From positions 1 to 44,853 of the forward strand of contig JACOTW010000010.1 in assembly GCA_016178135.1 (NCBI GenBank): a stretch of DNA of 44,853 nt, given 5' to 3'. This DNA comes from Candidatus Saccharimonadota bacterium (GTDB taxonomy: Bacteria; Patescibacteriota; Saccharimonadia; Saccharimonadales; JACOTW01). The notes beneath the pieces are model-generated. The model was not told where the DNA came from, ran no database searches, and saw only the letters and a program-made list of their open reading frames with translations. The position numbers and the translations under genes are program-made. Positions 6,876-43,367 of this stretch are shown here, one piece after another; position 1 is the stretch's first letter; every line of letters begins with the position of its first letter.

Positions 6876-7213
6876 TATACTGGATTTACGTAAAATCGCC
6901 CGTTCCCAGGCTAAATCAGCTCGAGCAGATAGTGGTTTGCCTGAAGAAGAGGTAGCTTTAGGGCTAATTAACATCTATCCGTTGATAGCGAATCTTTAGC
7001 AGCTGTCATGATTTTTATTCTGTTTTCTTGGCTTTTGGTCGTACCTATCGGTACGAACCGAAAACAAAAAACAGATTAAAAGTGACAGACCTGAAGATTT
7101 TAGCCGACAGATAGATGTTAATTAGCTCTTGGCTACATCGAGAGAAGACAGACCGCTACCAGCCGAGATTAGTTGGTCTGGGGATGGGGGAGCTTTGCGA
7201 CAGGTCCAGTATA
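6876..7213. repeat. Family A palindromic element interrupted by family C
   Basis: Left portion tatactggatttacgtaaaatcgcccgttcccaggctaaatcagctcgag...gaggtagct and right portion ttggctacatcgagagaagacagaccgctaccagccgag...gaggtccagtata-like end are family A, separated by ~166 bp. Confidence 0.88.
6962..7127. repeat. Family C palindromic element nested in family A
   Basis: Ends ggctaattaacatctatccgt / acagatagatgttaattagct are near-perfect inverted repeats; the centre is another inverted repeat tctgttttcttggcttttggtcgtacc-tatc-ggtacgaaccgaaaacaaaaaacaga. Confidence 0.8.
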
Positions 7214-25489: not shown

Positions 25490-27142
25490 TTAATTTAGGT
25501 ATCGGTGGAGAAGGGTTGCTTTGGTTTTACCTATAACTTGTTCTAAGGATAAGAGAGAGGCTTGTGTTAAGCCGTGCATACTACCAAAAGTTTTGAGGAG
25601 TTTTTTACGAGTGGCTGGACCAATACCTGGTATATCATCCAGTAAACTAGCAGTTGCACGTTTGGTTTTCAAGGTAGAGTGGTAGCTGACGACAAAACGA
25701 TGCGATTCGTCTCTAATACGCTGGAGTAGTTTTACCAAATTAGTATTATGCGGCAGATTTATCAGTACAAAATCACCAGATTCCGTCACAAAACCGTCCA
25801 ATTTATGGAGTGTTTTCGGATCTATTGTCACATTTGACGCATGTTTATTGATCACGATTTGCTCTTCGCGTTTAGCAAGACCAACCATAGGTACATCGCC
25901 AACTCCTCGTGCGTCGCGGGCTTTTATGGCCATTTCTAACTGACCCTTGCCACCATCTATAAGTATAAAGTTTGGTTTGGGCCATCTTTTTAGATTAGTT
26001 TCGCTAAAACGACGCTCGATTGTTTCATGCATATTATAAAAATCATTATTTTGGTCTTTTTTGGTTTTGAACTTACGATATTCGCTTTTGTTACTCGCCC
26101 CATTAGTAAACACCACCATGCTGGCCACCACATCCGTGCCGCTCATATGGCTGATGTCATAACCCTCAATCCGGCGCGGAAAGGCTTTTAAACCCAATAA
26201 ATCAACCAATTCATTGAGGGCGTGATCTTTGCTAATGTCCAGAAATTCTTTGTCACTAAATATTACTTGTTGATTCAGTCGTTTCAAGGCAAATAACTGA
26301 TTTCTTGTCTTCGCCGCCGCTTCAAACTGTGAAGTTTTGGCAAATTGTTTCATGTCTTTTTCTAATTCTTTTTCGATATTTTTACGCTTACCTTCAATAA
26401 CAGCTATCAAGCGTCGCAAATTTGCCCGATAATCTTCTAATGACGTTTTACCCTCCTCAAGCCCTGGGTCTAAACCTAAATGATAATGCAGTGTCGCTCG
26501 TTTTTGCCCAGGTGTCTGGCTAGTAGTAAATGGGAAAATTCGTCTCAAAAATTTGAGGGCCTGACGAACGCTTTGCGTACTTAAATATGGGCCAAAATAA
26601 TGCGCGCCATCGTCTAACGGACGGCGTGTAGTGGTGACAGTCGGGAAGTTGTCATCATAATTGATGCGAATATAAACCATCGATTTATCATCGCGAAGCA
26701 AAATATTATAGCGTGGCATATAACGCCGAACCATCTCGGCCTCCAAAAACAACGCCTCAAGCTCACTATCCACCACCATCCAATCGACATCAGCAATTTC
26801 GGCTATTAGGGCTTGGGTTTTTGGATCACGACTCCGACTTTTTTGAAAATATTGTCGTACACGATTTTTCAGAACCGCCGCCTTGCCCACGTAAATAATC
26901 TCGCCCTTGCTGTTTTTATGAAAGTAAACCCCGGGCGATTGGGGTAAGTTTTTTAATTTGGTGACCAAGCCTTTACTGGACTTACCCAAAATCGCCCGTT
27001 TCCGGAGTGAATTATCTCCAGCGAAAACTGTTTTATCTGAAGGAGAGGCACCTGAAGATACATCGGAAGAAGAAAAACTATTTGCAGCCGATAGAATTCG
27101 ATCTGGGGGTGGAGGAGTTTTGGGTAAGTTGAGTTTATGCAT
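25490..27142 (-). CDS. uvrC: Excinuclease ABC subunit C with repeat-encoded N-terminal segment
   Basis: GIY-YIG start LPQSPGVYFHKNSKGEIIYVGKAAVLKNRVRQYF, UvrC homology region and HhH end DDIPGIGPATRKKLLKTFGS. Residues ~6-55 are family A-encoded. Confidence 0.95.
   Translation of the reverse strand: MHKLNLPKTPPPPDRILSAANSFSSSDVSSGASPSDKTVFAGDNSLRKRAILGKSSKGLVTKLKNLPQSPGVYFHKNSKGEIIYVGKAAVLKNRVRQYFQKSRSRDPKTQALIAEIADVDWMVVDSELEALFLEAEMVRRYMPRYNILLRDDKSMVYIRINYDDNFPTVTTTRRPLDDGAHYFGPYLSTQSVRQALKFLRRIFPFTTSQTPGQKRATLHYHLGLDPGLEEGKTSLEDYRANLRRLIAVIEGKRKNIEKELEKDMKQFAKTSQFEAAAKTRNQLFALKRLNQQVIFSDKEFLDISKDHALNELVDLLGLKAFPRRIEGYDISHMSGTDVVASMVVFTNGASNKSEYRKFKTKKDQNNDFYNMHETIERRFSETNLKRWPKPNFILIDGGKGQLEMAIKARDARGVGDVPMVGLAKREEQIVINKHASNVTIDPKTLHKLDGFVTESGDFVLINLPHNTNLVKLLQRIRDESHRFVVSYHSTLKTKRATASLLDDIPGIGPATRKKLLKTFGSMHGLTQASLLSLEQVIGKTKATLLHRYLN
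26972..27134. repeat. Family A element inside the uvrC 5' coding region
   Basis: ttactggacttacccaaaatcgcccgtttccgg ... gggggtggaggagttttgggtaagttgagt. Confidence 0.85.
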
Positions 27143-28028: not shown

Positions 28029-29774
28029 TTAACGAAGCAATAACAAAGCAGCGATAACTACCCCAAATAATACAGCGATAATAATTATGGCAGGTGGCAA
28101 TGTTTGCGACCGTTGACTGGACTTAGGTGCAACGCCAAAACCATTGGCCCCATAAGCCGAGGGCATTGACTTGCTAGTGTTGTGCGGACTCTGGTTAGAG
28201 ATGGAACCATAGGCTGCATCATCGTTTTTATTGAACTCACGCGAAATCTCTCGTTCTTGGAGTAAACTGGACTTACCCAAAACCCCTCGTTCCCAGAGCG
28301 AATCAGATCGAGCAAAAACAGTTTTATCTGAAGGAGAGGTACCTGATTTACTGTGTCTTAAATGCTCCTGTGAATCTTGGCGATGTAAGCTATCAATTAG
28401 AATAGTTTCAAAACGATTACCGCTCAAAAATTCGCGCACTACACGTCTTAAGCCTATCGTATCAAGCCGACCCGCTTCATACATCTGTTTTACGCTAACA
28501 CCCCCTGATTCCATGTGTTTTGCCACCTCCAGAAGCTCAATCAAGGACATAGTTTCCGTCTTTTTAGGAGCTTCCTGGGCAGCTATCGGTAGCACCTCCA
28601 TTTTTGGCAACACCATTTTTGCCAACCTCTCCGCTTTTACTGGCAATCTATTTTCTGTCCGCTTTTCTTGTTTATTTTCACGATGCGTATCTAGCCGATC
28701 GGTCAATACCGGCCTAGCGATTCCCGGCTTATGTTTGATTGTGAGAGGGGCAAGTTTACGAATTTTTTCTTCGCGATCTGAAATACTAATCTGCAAGTTT
28801 TTTACTTCTTTGGTTAACTTTTCCTGAATGGGTAGCAATCGCTTTTCTGTTTTAATCCGCCCGCGGCGTCGACCAATTAAATAACCCACGATGCCGCCCG
28901 TCAAAACATCGCCGACTCTTTGATGACGTAACGGCAAGACCTTTGGGCTGGTATCCATGGCGTTTGGAGCTGGAGCTACAACATCTGACTCACTCAATAT
29001 CGAGATTGGAGGCACACCCAAACTTGACGGAGGTGCCGATGCGGAAACGGCGATCGGATTAACTGTAACTGGCCGATCATCTTCGGTTTCTTCGGCAATA
29101 TCAAGATCATTCATAGTATCTACCAAAATTTTATCGAGCAAATCTTCGTTAATTTCCTCATCACCATCCAAACCTTCCTGAATATTTTCCAGAAGCATAG
29201 CATTGGCTACGACGGCTGCCTCCTCCGGACTGTCCGGCTCTAATTGGTCAAGTTCCTGTTTTACATCTTCAGTTCTGGCTTGTACATATTGTTCTATGAC
29301 AAATCTTTGTTCGTTGTTCGTCAATTTCTCAAGATTTTTCGATTTGTCTTCTTGTTCTGATTGCTTACTAGACTCTTGCGCAATTTCCTCGTCATCATAT
29401 CTAATAACCTCGGTTACTTGAGTTGATTCACCTTGGAAACGAGGGGTTTTGGGTAGACTGGACTTACGCAAAGCTCCCCCATCCCCAGACCAATTCATCT
29501 CGGCTGGTAGCGGTCTGTCTTCTCTCGATGTAGCTATGGCTACCTCTCCTTCAGTCAAACCACTCCCAACTCGAGCTGATTTAGCCTGGGAACGGGCGAT
29601 TTTACGTAAGTCCAGTAGATCTTGCTTATCGTCTGTAACAATTTCAAAAATTGGTAATTTTTTGTTGGATTTTTTGTTCTTCTTGTCTTTTTTCTCGGCA
29701 ATATCAAAAAAACTCTCAAACGAACTCATCATTCGTTTATCGTTGTCCGAGTTATCGCTACCCGATATTTCCAT
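28029..29774 (-). CDS. Hypothetical protein with C-terminal TM, carrying family A insertions
   Basis: 581 aa; C-terminal ILPPAIIIIAVLFGVVIAALLLLR; contains LDLRKIARSQAKSARVGSG...GDGGALRKSSL and HSKSGTSPSDKTVFARSDSLWERGVLGKSS family A peptides. Confidence 0.75.
   Translation of the reverse strand: MEISGSDNSDNDKRMMSSFESFFDIAEKKDKKNKKSNKKLPIFEIVTDDKQDLLDLRKIARSQAKSARVGSGLTEGEVAIATSREDRPLPAEMNWSGDGGALRKSSLPKTPRFQGESTQVTEVIRYDDEEIAQESSKQSEQEDKSKNLEKLTNNEQRFVIEQYVQARTEDVKQELDQLEPDSPEEAAVVANAMLLENIQEGLDGDEEINEDLLDKILVDTMNDLDIAEETEDDRPVTVNPIAVSASAPPSSLGVPPISILSESDVVAPAPNAMDTSPKVLPLRHQRVGDVLTGGIVGYLIGRRRGRIKTEKRLLPIQEKLTKEVKNLQISISDREEKIRKLAPLTIKHKPGIARPVLTDRLDTHRENKQEKRTENRLPVKAERLAKMVLPKMEVLPIAAQEAPKKTETMSLIELLEVAKHMESGGVSVKQMYEAGRLDTIGLRRVVREFLSGNRFETILIDSLHRQDSQEHLRHSKSGTSPSDKTVFARSDSLWERGVLGKSSLLQEREISREFNKNDDAAYGSISNQSPHNTSKSMPSAYGANGFGVAPKSSQRSQTLPPAIIIIAVLFGVVIAALLLLR
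28263..28352. repeat. Half-length family A element in ORF 28029-29774
   Basis: aaactggacttacccaaaacccctcgttcccagagcgaatcagatcgagcaaaaacagttttatctgaaggagaggtacctga; only one arm present. Confidence 0.85.
29420..29454. repeat. Family A end fragment abutting a full copy
   Basis: gagttgattcaccttggaaacgaggggttttgggta resembles the family A terminus gctgattcgtcctgggaacgagggattttgcgta. Confidence 0.6.
29455..29620. repeat. Full-length family A element in ORF 28029-29774
   Basis: agactggacttacgcaaagctcccccatccccagaccaattcatctcgg...gggcgattttacgtaagtccagta; nearly identical to 35272-35440. Confidence 0.93.
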
Positions 29775-34608: not shown

Positions 34609-35241
34609 TTAGAAAAAATACCTGAAGATATTAACTGTAATTTCCCCAAAAGCAATTACCAAACCAATACCTGCCACACCCACTACGCATCCGAACAAAA
34701 ACAACAAAGAATCGCTAAAAATTAACCCGAGAGCAACTACTACGGCACCAAGCGAAGGGATAGTATCAAGACCTGAAAATGGTGGCGCCAAAAAAGCACT
34801 AAGTGCTAAAGTAAAAAAAATAGCACCAGCCAAGCGCGTAAAATAAAAATTATTAATAAGCCCTCTCAAACGTGGTCTGGAAAACTTCTCAAACCATTGA
34901 ATTCGATCAATCATAAACGGTATAGTTTTTTTTTGAAACATTTCTCCAAACTCCTTTTTGCGCCAACTTTTAGGCAACCACAAGGTTTTCATACCAACAA
35001 TCATCTCTAAACTTAAAAGCATGACAATAAGTTCAAATACGTGAGTCACACCTCCTGTTGGCAATGGCAATGCTGGTATGAACATGAGAAACAAAATAGC
35101 TACAGCAAAACCGCGTTCTTCAAAAATCATCTCCAACGAACCCAGTGTTTTTTTGTCATTATTATCAAGCCACTCTTTAAATTGCTGGCTAAAAAGTTGC
35201 TTAGAGCCTATGCTAGGTAGTTTCTTGGGTGTTGAACTCAT
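34609..35241 (-). CDS. ExoD-like exopolysaccharide synthesis membrane protein
   Basis: SLEMIFEERGFAVAILFLMFIPALPLPTGGVTHVFELIVMLLSLEMIVGMKTLWLPKSWRKKEF. Start placed at MSSTPKK; the longer ORF start lies in a family A element. Confidence 0.8.
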   Translation of the reverse strand: MSSTPKKLPSIGSKQLFSQQFKEWLDNNDKKTLGSLEMIFEERGFAVAILFLMFIPALPLPTGGVTHVFELIVMLLSLEMIVGMKTLWLPKSWRKKEFGEMFQKKTIPFMIDRIQWFEKFSRPRLRGLINNFYFTRLAGAIFFTLALSAFLAPPFSGLDTIPSLGAVVVALGLIFSDSLLFLFGCVVGVAGIGLVIAFGEITVNIFRYFF

Positions 35242-35271
35242 AAGCCCAGTGTAACAAACAATGGTCAATAA

Positions 35272-35440
35272 TATACCGGACCTACCCAAAGCTCCCCCAT
35301 CCCCAGACCAATTCATCTCGGCTGGTAGCGGTCTGTCTTCTCTCGATGTAGCTATGGCTACCTCTCCTTCAGTCAAACCACTCCCAACTCGAGCTGATTT
35401 AGCCTGGGAACGGGCGATTTTGCGACAGGTCCAGTATACG
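35272..35440. repeat. Family A palindromic element
   Basis: tataccggacctacccaaagctcccccatccccagaccaattcatctcgg...gggcgattttgcgacaggtccagtata. Confidence 0.93.
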
Positions 35441-36967: not shown

Positions 36968-37068
36968 GTAAACTGGACCTGTTGCAAAATCCCTCGTTCC
37001 CAAAGCGAATCAGCTCGAGCCGAGATTAGTCGGTCTGGAGATGGGGGAGCTTTGCGTCAGTCCAGTAA
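36968..37068. repeat. Internally deleted family A element overlapping the obgE 3' end
   Basis: aaactggacctgttgcaaaatccctcgttcccaaagcgaatcagctcgag joined to ccgagattagtcggtctggagatgggggagctttgcgtcagtccagta. Confidence 0.88.
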
Positions 37069-38486
37069 AACTCAATTTCTCCTAAGGATGGATTGCCAAA
37101 AATAATTTTGTCGTCTGTTTTTATACCTTGGCGAGTGAGCTCATGCATAATGCCCATTTTTTTCATAATATCACGTAGGCGCCGTACACCAGCCGAATTA
37201 GCAAAATCAGTTCTAGCGGCAAAACGTTCAATTTTTTTGCCGGTAATCTCATAACCTCGACTGATTTTTTTAACATGCCAAGCTTCTTCATTCTCAATCG
37301 TTAAAATTGGCAATGAACTGACCTCGTTAACCTCGTCAGGTTGTTTGGCGCGCTCCGTATCAACAATAGTTTTTAGCTTATACAATAATTCAGATATATT
37401 TTGTTTGCTCTGTGAAGATATAGCTACTACAGACACACCTTTGGGAAGAGCTTTTTTAAGTGTTTTGATATGATTAGCGACTATTTTGTCGTCAAGACCT
37501 TCAATTTTGGTCAATGCCACTATTCGTGGACGCTTTGATAAATCTATCTTGTAGGCTTTTAGCTCGCCTTCAACTATCTTGAACGATTCTACAATATCTT
37601 CATCATAAACGTCTATCAACTGTAGGAGCACGCCAGTTCGTTCCACGTGTCGTAAAAACTCGTCGCCCAGCCCTTTGCCTTGACTCGCCCCTTCTATGAG
37701 TCCCGGGATATCGGCAATCAATAGACTAGACTTATCGTCAATATCCACTACTCCTAGATTTGGAGTAAGTGTAGTGAATGGGTAGTTAGCAATTTCTGGC
37801 TTGGCATTACTAACGCTGGCCAAAAGAGTAGATTTACCGGCATTTGGTAGACCGATCAATCCAACATCGGCAATCATTTTCAGTTCTAATGTTACGGAAA
37901 ACTCCTGGCCCTTTTCGCCCTTTTCTGCTACTTGTGGTGCTTGACGAGTAGACGAAACAAAATGAGCGTTGCCAAATCCGCCCTTGCCACCCTTGGCCAA
38001 AATAACTTCTTGACCATCAACTGTCAAATCGGCCAATAGTTGGGCGTGTTCGTTTAAACTCGACTTACGCGAAATCTCTCGTTCTCGGTGTAAATCAGCT
38101 CCAACTAAGTCTGTTTTATCTGAAGAACTGTTAGCATTCGAGATTATTTGGTCTGGGGATGGGGGAGCTTTGCGTAAATCCAGTTTAGGTGATTTGAGCA
38201 TAACCGTCGTACCAACAGGTACCGCCACTCGCGTATCAGTGCCACTTCTACCATGTTTTTTTCTTTTGTCGCCAGGTTTGCCAGATTGAGCAATTAACTC
38301 TCTTTGATAACGAAAATTGGCAAGTGTGTTTTGATTGCGACTGGCTACGAATATGATATCGCCACCATCGCCACCATCGCCACCATCCGGTCCACCTAGA
38401 CGGATATATTTTTCATGACGAAAACTAACCCGCCCATCGCCACCACTACCGGCCTTTAATGTAACTTCTGCTTTATCCACAAACAT
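37026..38486 (-). CDS. obgE: GTPase Obg/CgtA with repeat-encoded insertion and C-terminal tail
   Basis: MFVDKAEVTLKAGSGGDGRVSFRHEKYI...GGPDGGDGGDGGDIIF, GLIGLPNAGKSTLLASVSNAKPEIANYPFTTLTPNLGVV. Insert LDLRKAPPSPDQIISNANSSSDKTDLVGADLHREREISRKSSL interrupts the Obg fold. Confidence 0.96.
   Translation of the reverse strand: MFVDKAEVTLKAGSGGDGRVSFRHEKYIRLGGPDGGDGGDGGDIIFVASRNQNTLANFRYQRELIAQSGKPGDKRKKHGRSGTDTRVAVPVGTTVMLKSPKLDLRKAPPSPDQIISNANSSSDKTDLVGADLHREREISRKSSLNEHAQLLADLTVDGQEVILAKGGKGGFGNAHFVSSTRQAPQVAEKGEKGQEFSVTLELKMIADVGLIGLPNAGKSTLLASVSNAKPEIANYPFTTLTPNLGVVDIDDKSSLLIADIPGLIEGASQGKGLGDEFLRHVERTGVLLQLIDVYDEDIVESFKIVEGELKAYKIDLSKRPRIVALTKIEGLDDKIVANHIKTLKKALPKGVSVVAISSQSKQNISELLYKLKTIVDTERAKQPDEVNEVSSLPILTIENEEAWHVKKISRGYEITGKKIERFAARTDFANSAGVRRLRDIMKKMGIMHELTRQGIKTDDKIIFGNPSLGEIEFYWTDAKLPHLQTD
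38056..38187. repeat. Shortened family A element inside obgE
   Basis: aaactcgacttacgcgaaatctctcgttctcgg...gagattatttggtctggggatgggggagctttgcgtaaatccagttta, ~132 bp. Confidence 0.88.
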
Positions 38487-39843: not shown

Positions 39844-40875
39844 TTAAGAGCATAGTTTTTTACAGTGCTTGACAGTTAGGGCTTCGTGTTCGGCTAGGGT
39901 ACGCGAAAAATATGTGATGCCGTCATCCCCTGCAACAAAATATAAATAATCGGTATTGCTGGGATTTGCCACTGCCGTAAGCGACGCCAAACTTACATTA
40001 CTAATTGGGCCTGGAGTTAATCCGACATGCAGATGAGTATTAAATGGCGAGTCATAAGTAAGTGAGGCATCTTTACCAGCAATTATTGAACCATAGAAAG
40101 CCGTAACGTCCGAGCCAAGCATCATGCCTTCTCGAAATCTCTTAATAAAGACCTGTGCTACAGTTGGCTTATCTTTGGGGTTATTAACCTCTTGATCGAC
40201 TATTGATGCTAGTATAACTCCTTCGTGAACAGTCAGGCCCTGCTTAATAATTCCAGCCCTTAGTTCAGGGGTCAAGTGTTTATTCATTTCATCCAACGAA
40301 GCTCGAATAATCGTTTCCACCTTGGTGCTATTTGTTTTCTGGAATGATTCCGGATATAAATAACCTTCTAGTGAAGCTTCTTTGGGTTTATTCGCCAGTG
40401 CTGGATGATCCAAATAAAGTGCAGGATTAAGTGCCAGGTCAACATTAGTCGCTGTAAATCCAGAATTAATTAGTGCTTGGCGAATCTGATCTAGGCGTTG
40501 ACCTGGCAAGATAGTTACCAGATCCGTTTTTATTTTGCCTTGAGAAATAATCGCCACAATCTCCTGAACGCTTTGATTGGATCGAAGCAAATATGTTCCA
40601 GCTTGTAACTTGTCGCGGATATTTTGAAAACGAACATACCATTCAAAGGCCCAGGTAGATTTAATAAGACCCTTGTCTTGAAGAATAGTGCCAATTTCTT
40701 TTATTCCAGTTCCAGATGGTATGGTGATCTGCTGAACGTGCTGGGAAGCATTCACCGGTTTCAGGTTTTCCAAATAAATATGTCGCGTTGCAAAAATTGC
40801 CCCGCCAAGTAAAACTACTAGGGTCAAGACAATAACTACTAGTGGTCTAAGCCATCGTTGACTAGATTTACGCAC
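39844..40875 (-). CDS. mltG: Endolytic murein transglycosylase MltG (YceG)
   Basis: TIPSGTGIKEIGTILQDKGLIKSTWAFEWYVRF, LEGYLYPESFQ, HEGVILASIVDQEV, DSPFNTHLHVGLTPGPISNVSLASLTAVANPSNTDYLYFV. Confidence 0.95.
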   Translation of the reverse strand: MRKSSQRWLRPLVVIVLTLVVLLGGAIFATRHIYLENLKPVNASQHVQQITIPSGTGIKEIGTILQDKGLIKSTWAFEWYVRFQNIRDKLQAGTYLLRSNQSVQEIVAIISQGKIKTDLVTILPGQRLDQIRQALINSGFTATNVDLALNPALYLDHPALANKPKEASLEGYLYPESFQKTNSTKVETIIRASLDEMNKHLTPELRAGIIKQGLTVHEGVILASIVDQEVNNPKDKPTVAQVFIKRFREGMMLGSDVTAFYGSIIAGKDASLTYDSPFNTHLHVGLTPGPISNVSLASLTAVANPSNTDYLYFVAGDDGITYFSRTLAEHEALTVKHCKKLCS

Positions 40876-40972
40876 AAATCCCTCTTTTCCGAAGCAAATC
40901 AGCTTGACACCAGTTTCGCAAAATCGTCCATTCCCAGAGTGAATTATCTCGAGCGAAAACTGTTTTCCCTAA
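40860..40972. repeat. Two partial family A arms in tandem
   Basis: actagatttacgcacaaatccctcttttccgaagcaaatcagctt and cgcaaaatcgtccattcccagagtgaattatctcgagcgaaaactgtttt, followed by a full copy. Confidence 0.75.
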
Positions 40973-41587
40973 ACTGGACTTACGCAAAATCGCCCGTTCC
41001 CAGGCTAAATCAGCTCGAGTTGGGAGTGGTTTGGCTGAAGGAGAGGGAGTCGTAGCTACATCGAGAGAAGGCAGACCGCTATCAGCCGAGATTAGTTGGT
41101 CTGGGGATGGGGGAGCTTTGCGTAAGTCCAGTAAAGTAATATAGCCCCCGCAAAACAAATTCGGGGGTTTTGGAGCCGATGATCTTCGAGTCAAAAACTG
41201 GCTTTTCCGAGGGAAGCATATCATTAGATAAGGTGAGTGAGGAAAGACAGCTTTTGGTTCGGCCTTTAGAGAGGTCAGTGCTTCGTCTTGTAAGTAAATG
41301 TCTTTTTGAGTTTTTTGGCCCAAATTTTCGGCAAACTTTCGCACAATTTTTGTTTGGCCGGTATCTTGCCCGTCCAGGCCTCGTGGTAGCCCAACAATAA
41401 TAGTTTGCACTTGTTCTTTTACGCACAATTCTTCCAGATAGTCCCAAATTTTTTCATCATTTAATACCGTGTCATAGGGATGTGCCAAACGAGCCACGCT
41501 ACTAGCAATAGCCACTCCAATACGTACATTGCCAATATCAAGGGCCACAAATTTATGGATTGCTGGTGCCATTTGAGCTGTTGTCAT
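40868..41587 (-). CDS. ruvX: RuvX/YqgF Holliday junction resolvase-like, native 3' part replaced by repeat-encoded sequence
   Basis: FVALDIGNVRIGVAIASSVARLAHPYDTVL, TIIVGLPRGLDGQDTGQTKIVRKFAENL, IYLQDEALTSLKAE; thereafter translation follows family B, family A and further A fragments. Confidence 0.8.
   Translation of the reverse strand: MTTAQMAPAIHKFVALDIGNVRIGVAIASSVARLAHPYDTVLNDEKIWDYLEELCVKEQVQTIIVGLPRGLDGQDTGQTKIVRKFAENLGQKTQKDIYLQDEALTSLKAEPKAVFPHSPYLMICFPRKSQFLTRRSSAPKPPNLFCGGYITLLDLRKAPPSPDQLISADSGLPSLDVATTPSPSAKPLPTRADLAWERAILRKSSLGKTVFARDNSLWEWTILRNWCQADLLRKRGICA
40973..41133. repeat. Full-length family A element within the ruvX 3' region
   Basis: actggacttacgcaaaatcgcccgttcccaggctaaatcagctcgag...gatgggggagctttgcgtaagtccagta. 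Confidence 0.93.
41139..41258. repeat. Truncated family B element within the ruvX 3' region
   Basis: tatagcccccgcaaaacaaattcgggggttttggagccgatgatcttcgagtcaaaaactggcttttccgag...gaggaaagacagcttttggttc; right terminal repeat missing. Confidence 0.85.
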
Positions 41588-43262
41588 TATTAACCTGTTC
41601 AAACGTAATTGTTATTTTGCCGGTTTGCTTTGGCATTTTGTAGACCCAAAATGGGCTGTAATTTATAGTAACTTCTTTTACGCCCGGACGACTACCGATT
41701 ATATTCTGGGCTTCACCTTTTTTCTTGCCAGCTATAGCCTTTTTAATACCGGTAACGTCTGATTGTACGCCAGCCACGACTTCAGTTTGCAACAAAAATC
41801 TTACATCACCGTTAGCCTGCTTATTAACATCTCTGAAAACCGTCGCATCAAGACCGTTGTCAAGAATTTTTTGTTTCTTAGTGTCTATATGGCCCTTGGA
41901 GTCTTCTTCTATTAGTTGTTTGACGGCATCGAGTTTTACTCCCGTCATAACATAACTGACCGTAACACTGACATTCACTTCTGTTGCCTGATCACCAACA
42001 CTAGGTGCGGAAGTAACTACCGGAGCGCCGACCGTCAAAGTATCAGGTAACGCCAGATAACCTTCGGCTACTAGTAATTTAGAAACCTCGGCCTTACTGG
42101 TCTGTAGATTCTGATCCAAGATTTTCTGCTTGGCACTATCCAGGTCCGCTTGGCTTACGACTTTAACAATATTGCTAGTACCGCCACTCATGGCCGAGCC
42201 TTTACCAGTCATGGTCGGAAAATTGGACACAGCATAATCCCTTGCACTCAAGTTATAGCTATCACCGCCATTTTGAGCCATAACGACAACCGATGCAGAT
42301 TGTTTATTTGCCTGACAAGTATCGCCAGTGTAGCTACTCGGCTCAACGTCAACTGCTTCGGTGGTAATAAAATTCTTGCTACCAGAAGATATAGTGGTTC
42401 CAGCAGGTACAGTTCTAACAATATCTCCGAGTTTATCAGTCTTATTGCAGTTAATGAATTTCACGGTACCAGAGGCCTTGGTACCTAAGTCTTTTTCGCC
42501 TGTCGCCATCGCTTTTATGGCATCGGTTTTTTTATATTCTTTAGTAATTGCAGGGACAATTTTTTGCTGTTTGTCGAGTTCTTTGGCTGCCGAACTGGCT
42601 GTCATCGTCAAACTAGCCGCGTAACTGGTAGTATAAGTTTTTATAACAATCCTGGCACTGGGCATGACAAAAAAGGCAAAATACCAAAATACAATAAGCC
42701 CGACTAATAAAATGCTACCTAGAATTAGTTTTGTGCGGAATTTGTCAAAATTCGGGATTTTGAATTTCTTGTTCTTTTTCGGTTTGGTGGTTTTTGGTAG
42801 TTTTTCTTCGGGCTCCAAATCATCATTGTCAAACTCAATAGTTTCATCTTCTGGCTGACGAGACAAGCTAGCCAATTCACCAATTGGCCTTGTATTATCA
42901 ATACTGGTGCCAGTTGCTTCTTCTGGGCCAACATCTTCGCTAACCGTCAGTGGTGTGCTGTCAGGCATAGATGGCGAGGGTGGAATTGCTGGCTTAGTTT
43001 GCAATGTCCTGGCAACATGCACGCCTACCGCACCAGCTAGGGGTAAAATACCGGTTTCCGACGTAATCAGTACGATGTGTTTTTTGGCCGTATCACCCGT
43101 ACGTTTCAATAATCGCATATTTACAATGCTCTGCAATACGGTGGCCCGCTTTGGTAAAACTAGTGCTACGATCCTGTGCGAACTACCACGCACCTTATCT
43201 ATAATGCTGGTAATTTCATCGTCAAGATCAATATAAATAGTGTCTTTTGGCTGTTCAGCCAT
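41553..43262 (-). CDS. Hypothetical membrane protein, baseplate-J-like repeat region
   Basis: 570 aa; central TM ILGSILLVGLIVFWYFAFFVM, long extracellular part with KATGTVKFIN-like motif (GTKASGTVKFINCNKTDKLGDIVRTVPAGTTISSGSKNFITTE). Confidence 0.75.
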   Translation of the reverse strand: MAEQPKDTIYIDLDDEITSIIDKVRGSSHRIVALVLPKRATVLQSIVNMRLLKRTGDTAKKHIVLITSETGILPLAGAVGVHVARTLQTKPAIPPSPSMPDSTPLTVSEDVGPEEATGTSIDNTRPIGELASLSRQPEDETIEFDNDDLEPEEKLPKTTKPKKNKKFKIPNFDKFRTKLILGSILLVGLIVFWYFAFFVMPSARIVIKTYTTSYAASLTMTASSAAKELDKQQKIVPAITKEYKKTDAIKAMATGEKDLGTKASGTVKFINCNKTDKLGDIVRTVPAGTTISSGSKNFITTEAVDVEPSSYTGDTCQANKQSASVVVMAQNGGDSYNLSARDYAVSNFPTMTGKGSAMSGGTSNIVKVVSQADLDSAKQKILDQNLQTSKAEVSKLLVAEGYLALPDTLTVGAPVVTSAPSVGDQATEVNVSVTVSYVMTGVKLDAVKQLIEEDSKGHIDTKKQKILDNGLDATVFRDVNKQANGDVRFLLQTEVVAGVQSDVTGIKKAIAGKKKGEAQNIIGSRPGVKEVTINYSPFWVYKMPKQTGKITITFEQVNNDNSSNGTSNP

Positions 43263-43367
43263 GCGTATATCCTTTGGAAGCATCAAACGAGTATCTGGCT
43301 TGAATCAAACTAGCCCGTCCACAATCTGACAACTGATCAATTTTTATACTGTATTCTGATGATTGTT

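Follow-up and report, generated by a model that had tools for sequence, protein, structure and literature searches.

How does a conserved, single-copy gene come to end in repeat sequence and still read through, without interruption, to a stop codon at its usual downstream neighbor? This question is raised by ruvX in a contig of a Candidatus Saccharimonadota bacterium (JACOTW010000010.1, assembly GCA_016178135.1; genome of 0.80 Mb, 96.7% complete), which was analyzed over its whole length of 44,853 nucleotides (contig C9; hereafter, the window). The ruvX open reading frame (ORF; 40868-41587, minus strand) is real and encodes a product of 239 amino acids, in which a RuvX core of 110 residues is followed by a tail of 129 codons derived from two families of repeat elements, A and B. 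The explanation that we favor, at a probability of roughly two in three, is that such elements became stacked at the boundary between ruvX and mltG, that the RuvX C-terminus was deleted there, and that the naturally open frames of the elements gave rise to a long, mostly disordered tail.

A RuvX core without its C-terminus

The native part of ruvX (41258-41587, minus strand), recognized by its PF03652 match and in alignment A1, covers residues 1-110 and ends in QDEALTSLKAE; the junction, with LKAE at 41258 as the last native residues, was placed by comparison with 25 relatives. In profile searches, the product matched PF03652 only at positions 2-102 of 134 (87 bits) and TIGR00250 only at positions 2-100 of 130, in agreement with an earlier note, made from the sequence alone, that the protein is normal up to DEALTSLKAE. 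In relatives, DEALTSxxAE is followed by EELxxRGKxYxKGDIDALAATYILEDYL. A profile of this native C-terminal segment of ~35 residues, which includes the third catalytic Asp, found it in none of the six reading frames of the window (best E 0.16), so that the claim in the note that the usual C-terminal helix and the last conserved acidic residue are not recognizable stands for every frame.

Within the order, this loss is exceptional. RuvX was found in 78 of the 80 sampled genomes, with nearly all matches reaching profile positions 128-134, compared to 102 in the present case, and virtually all other RuvX proteins detected there possess the native C-terminus. Two other matches are short, one located at a contig edge (G064) and one in a protein that retains the helix, DEHSLAAAAILQDFL (G075). 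RuvX is intact in G009 and G020 (loci L039 and L054), the nearest genomes in which related A elements occur, so that the lesion is private to this genome among those compared. Neither a second ruvX nor any other ruvX piece was detected in the genome by profile search; ruvC is present and full length.

RuvX/YqgF is implicated in pre-16S rRNA processing, too. The active site of YqgF consists of three carboxylates, located in β1, at the end of β5 and in α3 (PMC9601230). In the present protein, Asp17 of β1 and Glu102 at the end of β5, both invariant in alignment A1, are retained. Foldseek matches the core to 1nmn and 7ess, that is, to the RNase H fold characteristic of YqgF/RuvX, and AlphaFold predicts the core with a local confidence score (pLDDT) above 90 and the tail mostly with scores below 50. 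Thus, the protein resembles the YqgF/RuvX family (PF03652, TIGR00250; PDB 1nu0, 7ess, 1vhx, 7w89) in the RNase H core up to the end of β5, the two acidic residues and the operon order with mltG, but differs in lacking α3 with the third carboxylate and in carrying a 129-residue, element-derived tail. The truncated core may still fold because a solution structure has been solved for 1iv0, a YqgF-family N-terminal fragment of ~98 residues without the C-terminal helix, although the 1iv0 entry represents part of a longer, full-length protein and is not a natural truncation. The RuvX nuclease activity is probably lost or weakened.

An element-derived tail that reaches into mltG

The tail extends from 41257 to 40871 and comprises, along ruvX, a truncated B fragment, then an intact A, and finally a pair of decayed A pieces, an order that had been correctly read in the earlier note, together with the stop overlapping mltG. 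The B fragment (41139-41257, minus strand), delineated by comparison of repeat families D5/D7, genome-wide copies and open frames, is read in frame as PKAVFPHSPYLMICFPRKSQFLTRRSSAPKPPNLFCGGY; its mltG-side terminal repeat, TATAGCCCCCGCAAAACAAATTC, is present, and its ruvX-side end is gone. Next comes the 158-bp core of an intact A (40974-41131, minus strand), identified by repeat comparison, target duplications and frame analysis, which is read in frame 0 of A as LDLRKAPPSPDQLISADSGLPSLDVATTPSPSAKPLPTRADLAWERAILRKS. By comparison of the flanks, this copy is bounded by the 4-bp target duplication TAAA on one side (41132-41135) and the other (40970-40973). The decayed pieces are A-old2 (about 40904-40966, minus strand), read as ...KTVFARDNSLWEWTILRNWCQ..., and A-old1, a family A terminus (about 40861-40904, minus strand) that was also traced by its frame. 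Local alignment scores of the decayed pieces were 39-80 overall, vs shuffled maxima of 24-31 (80 vs 28 for A-old2 and 49 vs 31 for A-old1). An open stretch of 129 codons survives in only 5 of 2000 dinucleotide shuffles, but the openness of the actual tail is largely explained by that of the elements themselves (see below).

The earlier note suggested that either the RuvX activity is lost or the repeat tail substitutes structurally. When AlphaFold was first run, with the α3 of the relatives aligned onto A-old2, this segment was modeled as a helix (residues 216-234, pLDDT 83-89). Together with the placement of A-old2 on α3 by MAFFT and the identical Asp-to-Ile-Leu spacing in DLAWERAIL and DALAATYIL, this helix would be expected if the tail had been co-opted as a stand-in for α3 (for example, through RADLAWERAIL of A or the DNSLWEWTIL helix of A-old2), keeping some of the activity. 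However, in a control run with the relatives cut at LKAE, the pLDDT of the same segment was only 34-57, with the core remaining above 90 and no confident α3, showing that the helix is an effect of the alignment. Moreover, in alignment A1, the catalytic position is occupied by Asn, with an Asp one residue away, and the A peptide shows no sign of purifying selection among the copies. Such co-option appears quite improbable, and structural substitution for α3 is not supported by the models; of the two outcomes, loss of activity is favored.

The mltG gene (39844-40875, minus strand), encoding an endolytic transglycosylase, was delimited using PF02618, TIGR00247 and the N-termini of relatives. Among named relatives, those nearest to this MltG belong to Candidatus Saccharibacteria, hence the term Saccharibacteria-like used below for the genome. 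The ruvX stop overlaps it by 8 nucleotides, and A-old1, the outermost A piece, passes that stop and supplies the mltG GTG start (40873-40875) along with codons 2-5 (RKSS; VRKSS with the start); the motif AGAGGG is located just before the GTG. A-old1 departs from the A consensus at a single nucleotide that gives rise to both the ruvX TAA (40868-40870) and the GTG and separates the ruvX and mltG frames. In relatives, the N-termini of MltG are ordinary and short, and many have the ruvX stop and the mltG start overlapping as ATGA, so that coupled translation of the two genes is probably ancestral. The present 8-nucleotide overlap may preserve this coupling.

The frames of the ruvX tail and mltG coincide but for that one nucleotide, as would be the case if the locus encoded, or recently had encoded, a fusion of RuvX lacking α3 with MltG, with the elements as the linker and the 1-nucleotide difference resulting from a recent frameshift or a sequencing or assembly error. 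Four other genomes of the order encode natural RuvX-MltG fusions of 443-499 amino acids (L049, L157, L158, L159), but all of these retain the complete RuvX. Given that frames coincide by chance in one of three cases and that an indel is unremarkable in a decayed A piece with many other substitutions, we consider a fusion unlikely. In the natural fusions, RuvX is anchored to a transglycosylase of the membrane.

Family A is a mobile element

Beyond what was claimed in the earlier note, family A proved to be mobile and present in frame in essential genes genome-wide, and to have rebuilt the mltG start. It is an imperfect palindrome of 158 bp, with 15-bp terminal inverted repeats, CTGGACTTACGCAAA, at both ends. 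Across the 0.8 Mb, sites of the terminal repeat with at most 2 mismatches number 186 (96 forward and 90 reverse), vs 1 and 0 in the control. The 30 A copies that were extracted as loci share 89-100% identity with the one in ruvX, and 24 of the 29 sampled copies are flanked by perfect 4-bp TNNA target duplications (TAAA/TAAA at ruvX), indicating that family A transposes or recently did so. Both terminal inverted repeats and target-site duplication, two hallmarks of miniature inverted-repeat transposable elements (MITEs), are thus present, and the 158-bp element is too short to encode a transposase. A search for the IS4/IS5-type transposase DDE_Tnp_1 (PF01609), the one transposase family searched for, gave no match in the genome.

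Each inserted A lengthens the sequence by 162 bp, equal to 54 codons. Of the 30 copies, 22 have an open frame 0 on one strand and 21 on the other, vs 0-8 of 30 in the other four frames, and family B is likewise open in frame, so that insertions often leave the reading frame unbroken. If the target duplication of B is TA, this family would add about 165 bp. The A consensus is 59% self-complementary, and its RNA is predicted to fold into a strong hairpin (z -4.4). Nucleotide diversity of the A peptide-coding frame is about equal at the three codon positions (0.093, 0.080 and 0.085), and purifying selection on the peptide was rejected, with synonymous and nonsynonymous differences among the copies as expected. 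Apart from a slight shortage of stop codons (0 vs 2.0 expected and 1 vs 2.5 expected), the peptide is not conserved, which indicates tolerance of the peptide and no selection for its sequence. As a separate candidate, a self-splicing intron was considered and rejected, since nothing in Rfam matched 40000-42000 at E values up to 0.5.

The copy number of the elements raises the concern that ruvX was misjoined to a repeat cluster beside mltG during metagenome assembly. Family B does break the assembly: three contigs of this genome (G000; C2, C3 and C6, in their first ~140 bases) each start roughly 74 bp away from a B terminus. At ruvX, however, both flanks are the expected neighbors, in an order shared by 30 of 30 relatives; matching target duplications bound the intact A at exactly this site, and the genome yielded no further piece of ruvX. 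Such an artefact is therefore very unlikely.

In-frame copies in other genes

Counts of A within genes rest on a sample of 30 loci together with eight stretches. A is found in frame within full-length ORFs for RsmA/KsgA, TruB, dihydrofolate reductase (DHFR), a ROK kinase, an epimerase, a NUDIX protein and a Mur ligase, as well as an RluA-family synthase, tryptophanyl-tRNA synthetase (TrpRS), TsaE, signal peptidase, ObgE and MurD; overall, at least 10 named genes carry it in frame. Loci L010, L025, L026, L144, L148 and L150 cover in-frame A in MurD, KsgA, TruB, the RluA-family synthase and TrpRS, TsaE (two A pieces) and signal peptidase I. In TruB, the sole copy in the genome, the element splits the profile match in two (6-66 and 63-149) without introducing a stop.

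Outside this genome, few relatives of A were found. An exact 30-bp A pattern had no match in the GTDB r220 collection, from which the genome itself may have been left out. A loose search of 196 other genomes of the order identified full-length A relatives in only two (85% identity in G009 and 73% in G020) and short matches to the A core in five more.

A scenario for the ruvX/mltG boundary

Under the favored explanation, in which stacked elements and a deletion shaped the end of ruvX, two short mobile palindrome families, A and B, would have accumulated at the ruvX/mltG boundary, inserting near the mltG start. A later deletion would have fused ruvX codon 110 to the interior of B, taking away α3, the stop of the native gene and the start of mltG. 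The intact A most likely arrived late because its duplications remain perfect. The ribosome would read through B, A and A-old2 until a shift of frame within the outermost A terminus leads to a stop overlapping the new mltG GTG. The resulting RuvX would possess an RNase H-fold core with two of the three catalytic carboxylates, no α3 and a mostly disordered tail of ~129 residues, most likely with its nuclease activity lost or strongly reduced, leaving RuvC to serve Holliday junctions. Persistence of the ORF is probably due to the natural openness of the elements and to the 8-nucleotide overlap, which keeps translation into mltG coupled.

Several considerations weigh against this scenario. No genome of the same genus or family was among those compared, so that both the deletion and its timing had to be inferred. 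Furthermore, the ruvX core retains all its conserved motifs and contains no stop, which is compatible with continued selection, and outright loss would be unusual, YqgF being essential in several bacteria (PMC9601230).

Comparison with known palindromic elements

The closest parallel are the Rickettsia palindromic elements (RPEs), ~150-bp palindromes present in many copies that encode an open peptide and sit in frame inside housekeeping genes unrelated to one another (Ogata et al. 2000, 2002; reviewed in PMC10969869). Family A shares the palindromic structure, the open frame and in-frame insertion into unrelated coding genes. Its host, however, belongs to a different phylum. The likeness lies in the mode of action, and an independent origin is presumed. 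Unlike RPEs, so far as the two were compared, family A has clear 4-bp TNNA duplications and 15-bp CTGGACTTACGCAAA terminal repeats, and the 87-96% identity of sampled copies to the ruvX copy suggests recent activity; furthermore, at ruvX, the A and B elements replace the end of a gene instead of sitting inside it. It is conceivable, albeit improbable, that RPE-type coding palindromes evolved independently here, each copy lengthening an essential protein by 54 residues and the elements, at ruvX/mltG, rebuilding the whole boundary, including a RuvX C-terminus with a helix in place of α3, the stop, a ribosome-binding motif and the mltG start.

Family A also resembles bacterial MITEs, such as ERIC, Correia/NEMIS and RUP, which are short, present in many copies, have terminal inverted repeats and target duplications, and lack a transposase gene. 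ERIC and Correia elements duplicate TA, whereas family A duplicates TNNA and has an inserted length that is a multiple of three. The TATAG end of family B is reminiscent of Correia-type ends, by resemblance only.

Taken alone, the ruvX case is a C-terminal truncation by mobile elements, and the wider set of in-frame insertions is more interesting. Selfish palindromes within reading frames have long been a curiosity of Rickettsia, and the tolerance of proteins to such inserts is an open question; a streamlined Saccharibacteria-like genome with a high-copy, recently moving family in MurD, KsgA, TruB, TrpRS, TsaE and ObgE would provide an independent system to address it. A partial search of the literature yielded no earlier report of such elements in Saccharibacteria or Patescibacteria. 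The ruvX/mltG locus adds that the same elements can erode the conserved end of a gene and yet leave the operon translatable.

Other features of the window and related loci

The upstream neighbor of ruvX (41553-43286, minus strand) is a conserved gene without a Pfam family that holds the same position in all 30 relatives. Elsewhere in the window, the gene for the Obg GTPase ObgE (37029-38486, minus strand) contains an in-frame A around 38055-38187 and ends at a stop codon within a further A copy (36970-37065). Copies of A also overlap the genes for UvrC (25493-27142), an ExoD-like protein (34612-35376) and a 581-amino acid protein (28032-29774), all on the minus strand, near the N-termini or inside. 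At 6876-7199, an A copy is apparently split by another inserted palindromic sequence, with about 170 bp between the halves. The A-type element of 73% identity in G020, a genome from a different family of the order, is located in frame in the N-terminal part of a pilin-like protein (L153), and A occupies a similar place in a pilin-like protein of the genome studied here (L008).
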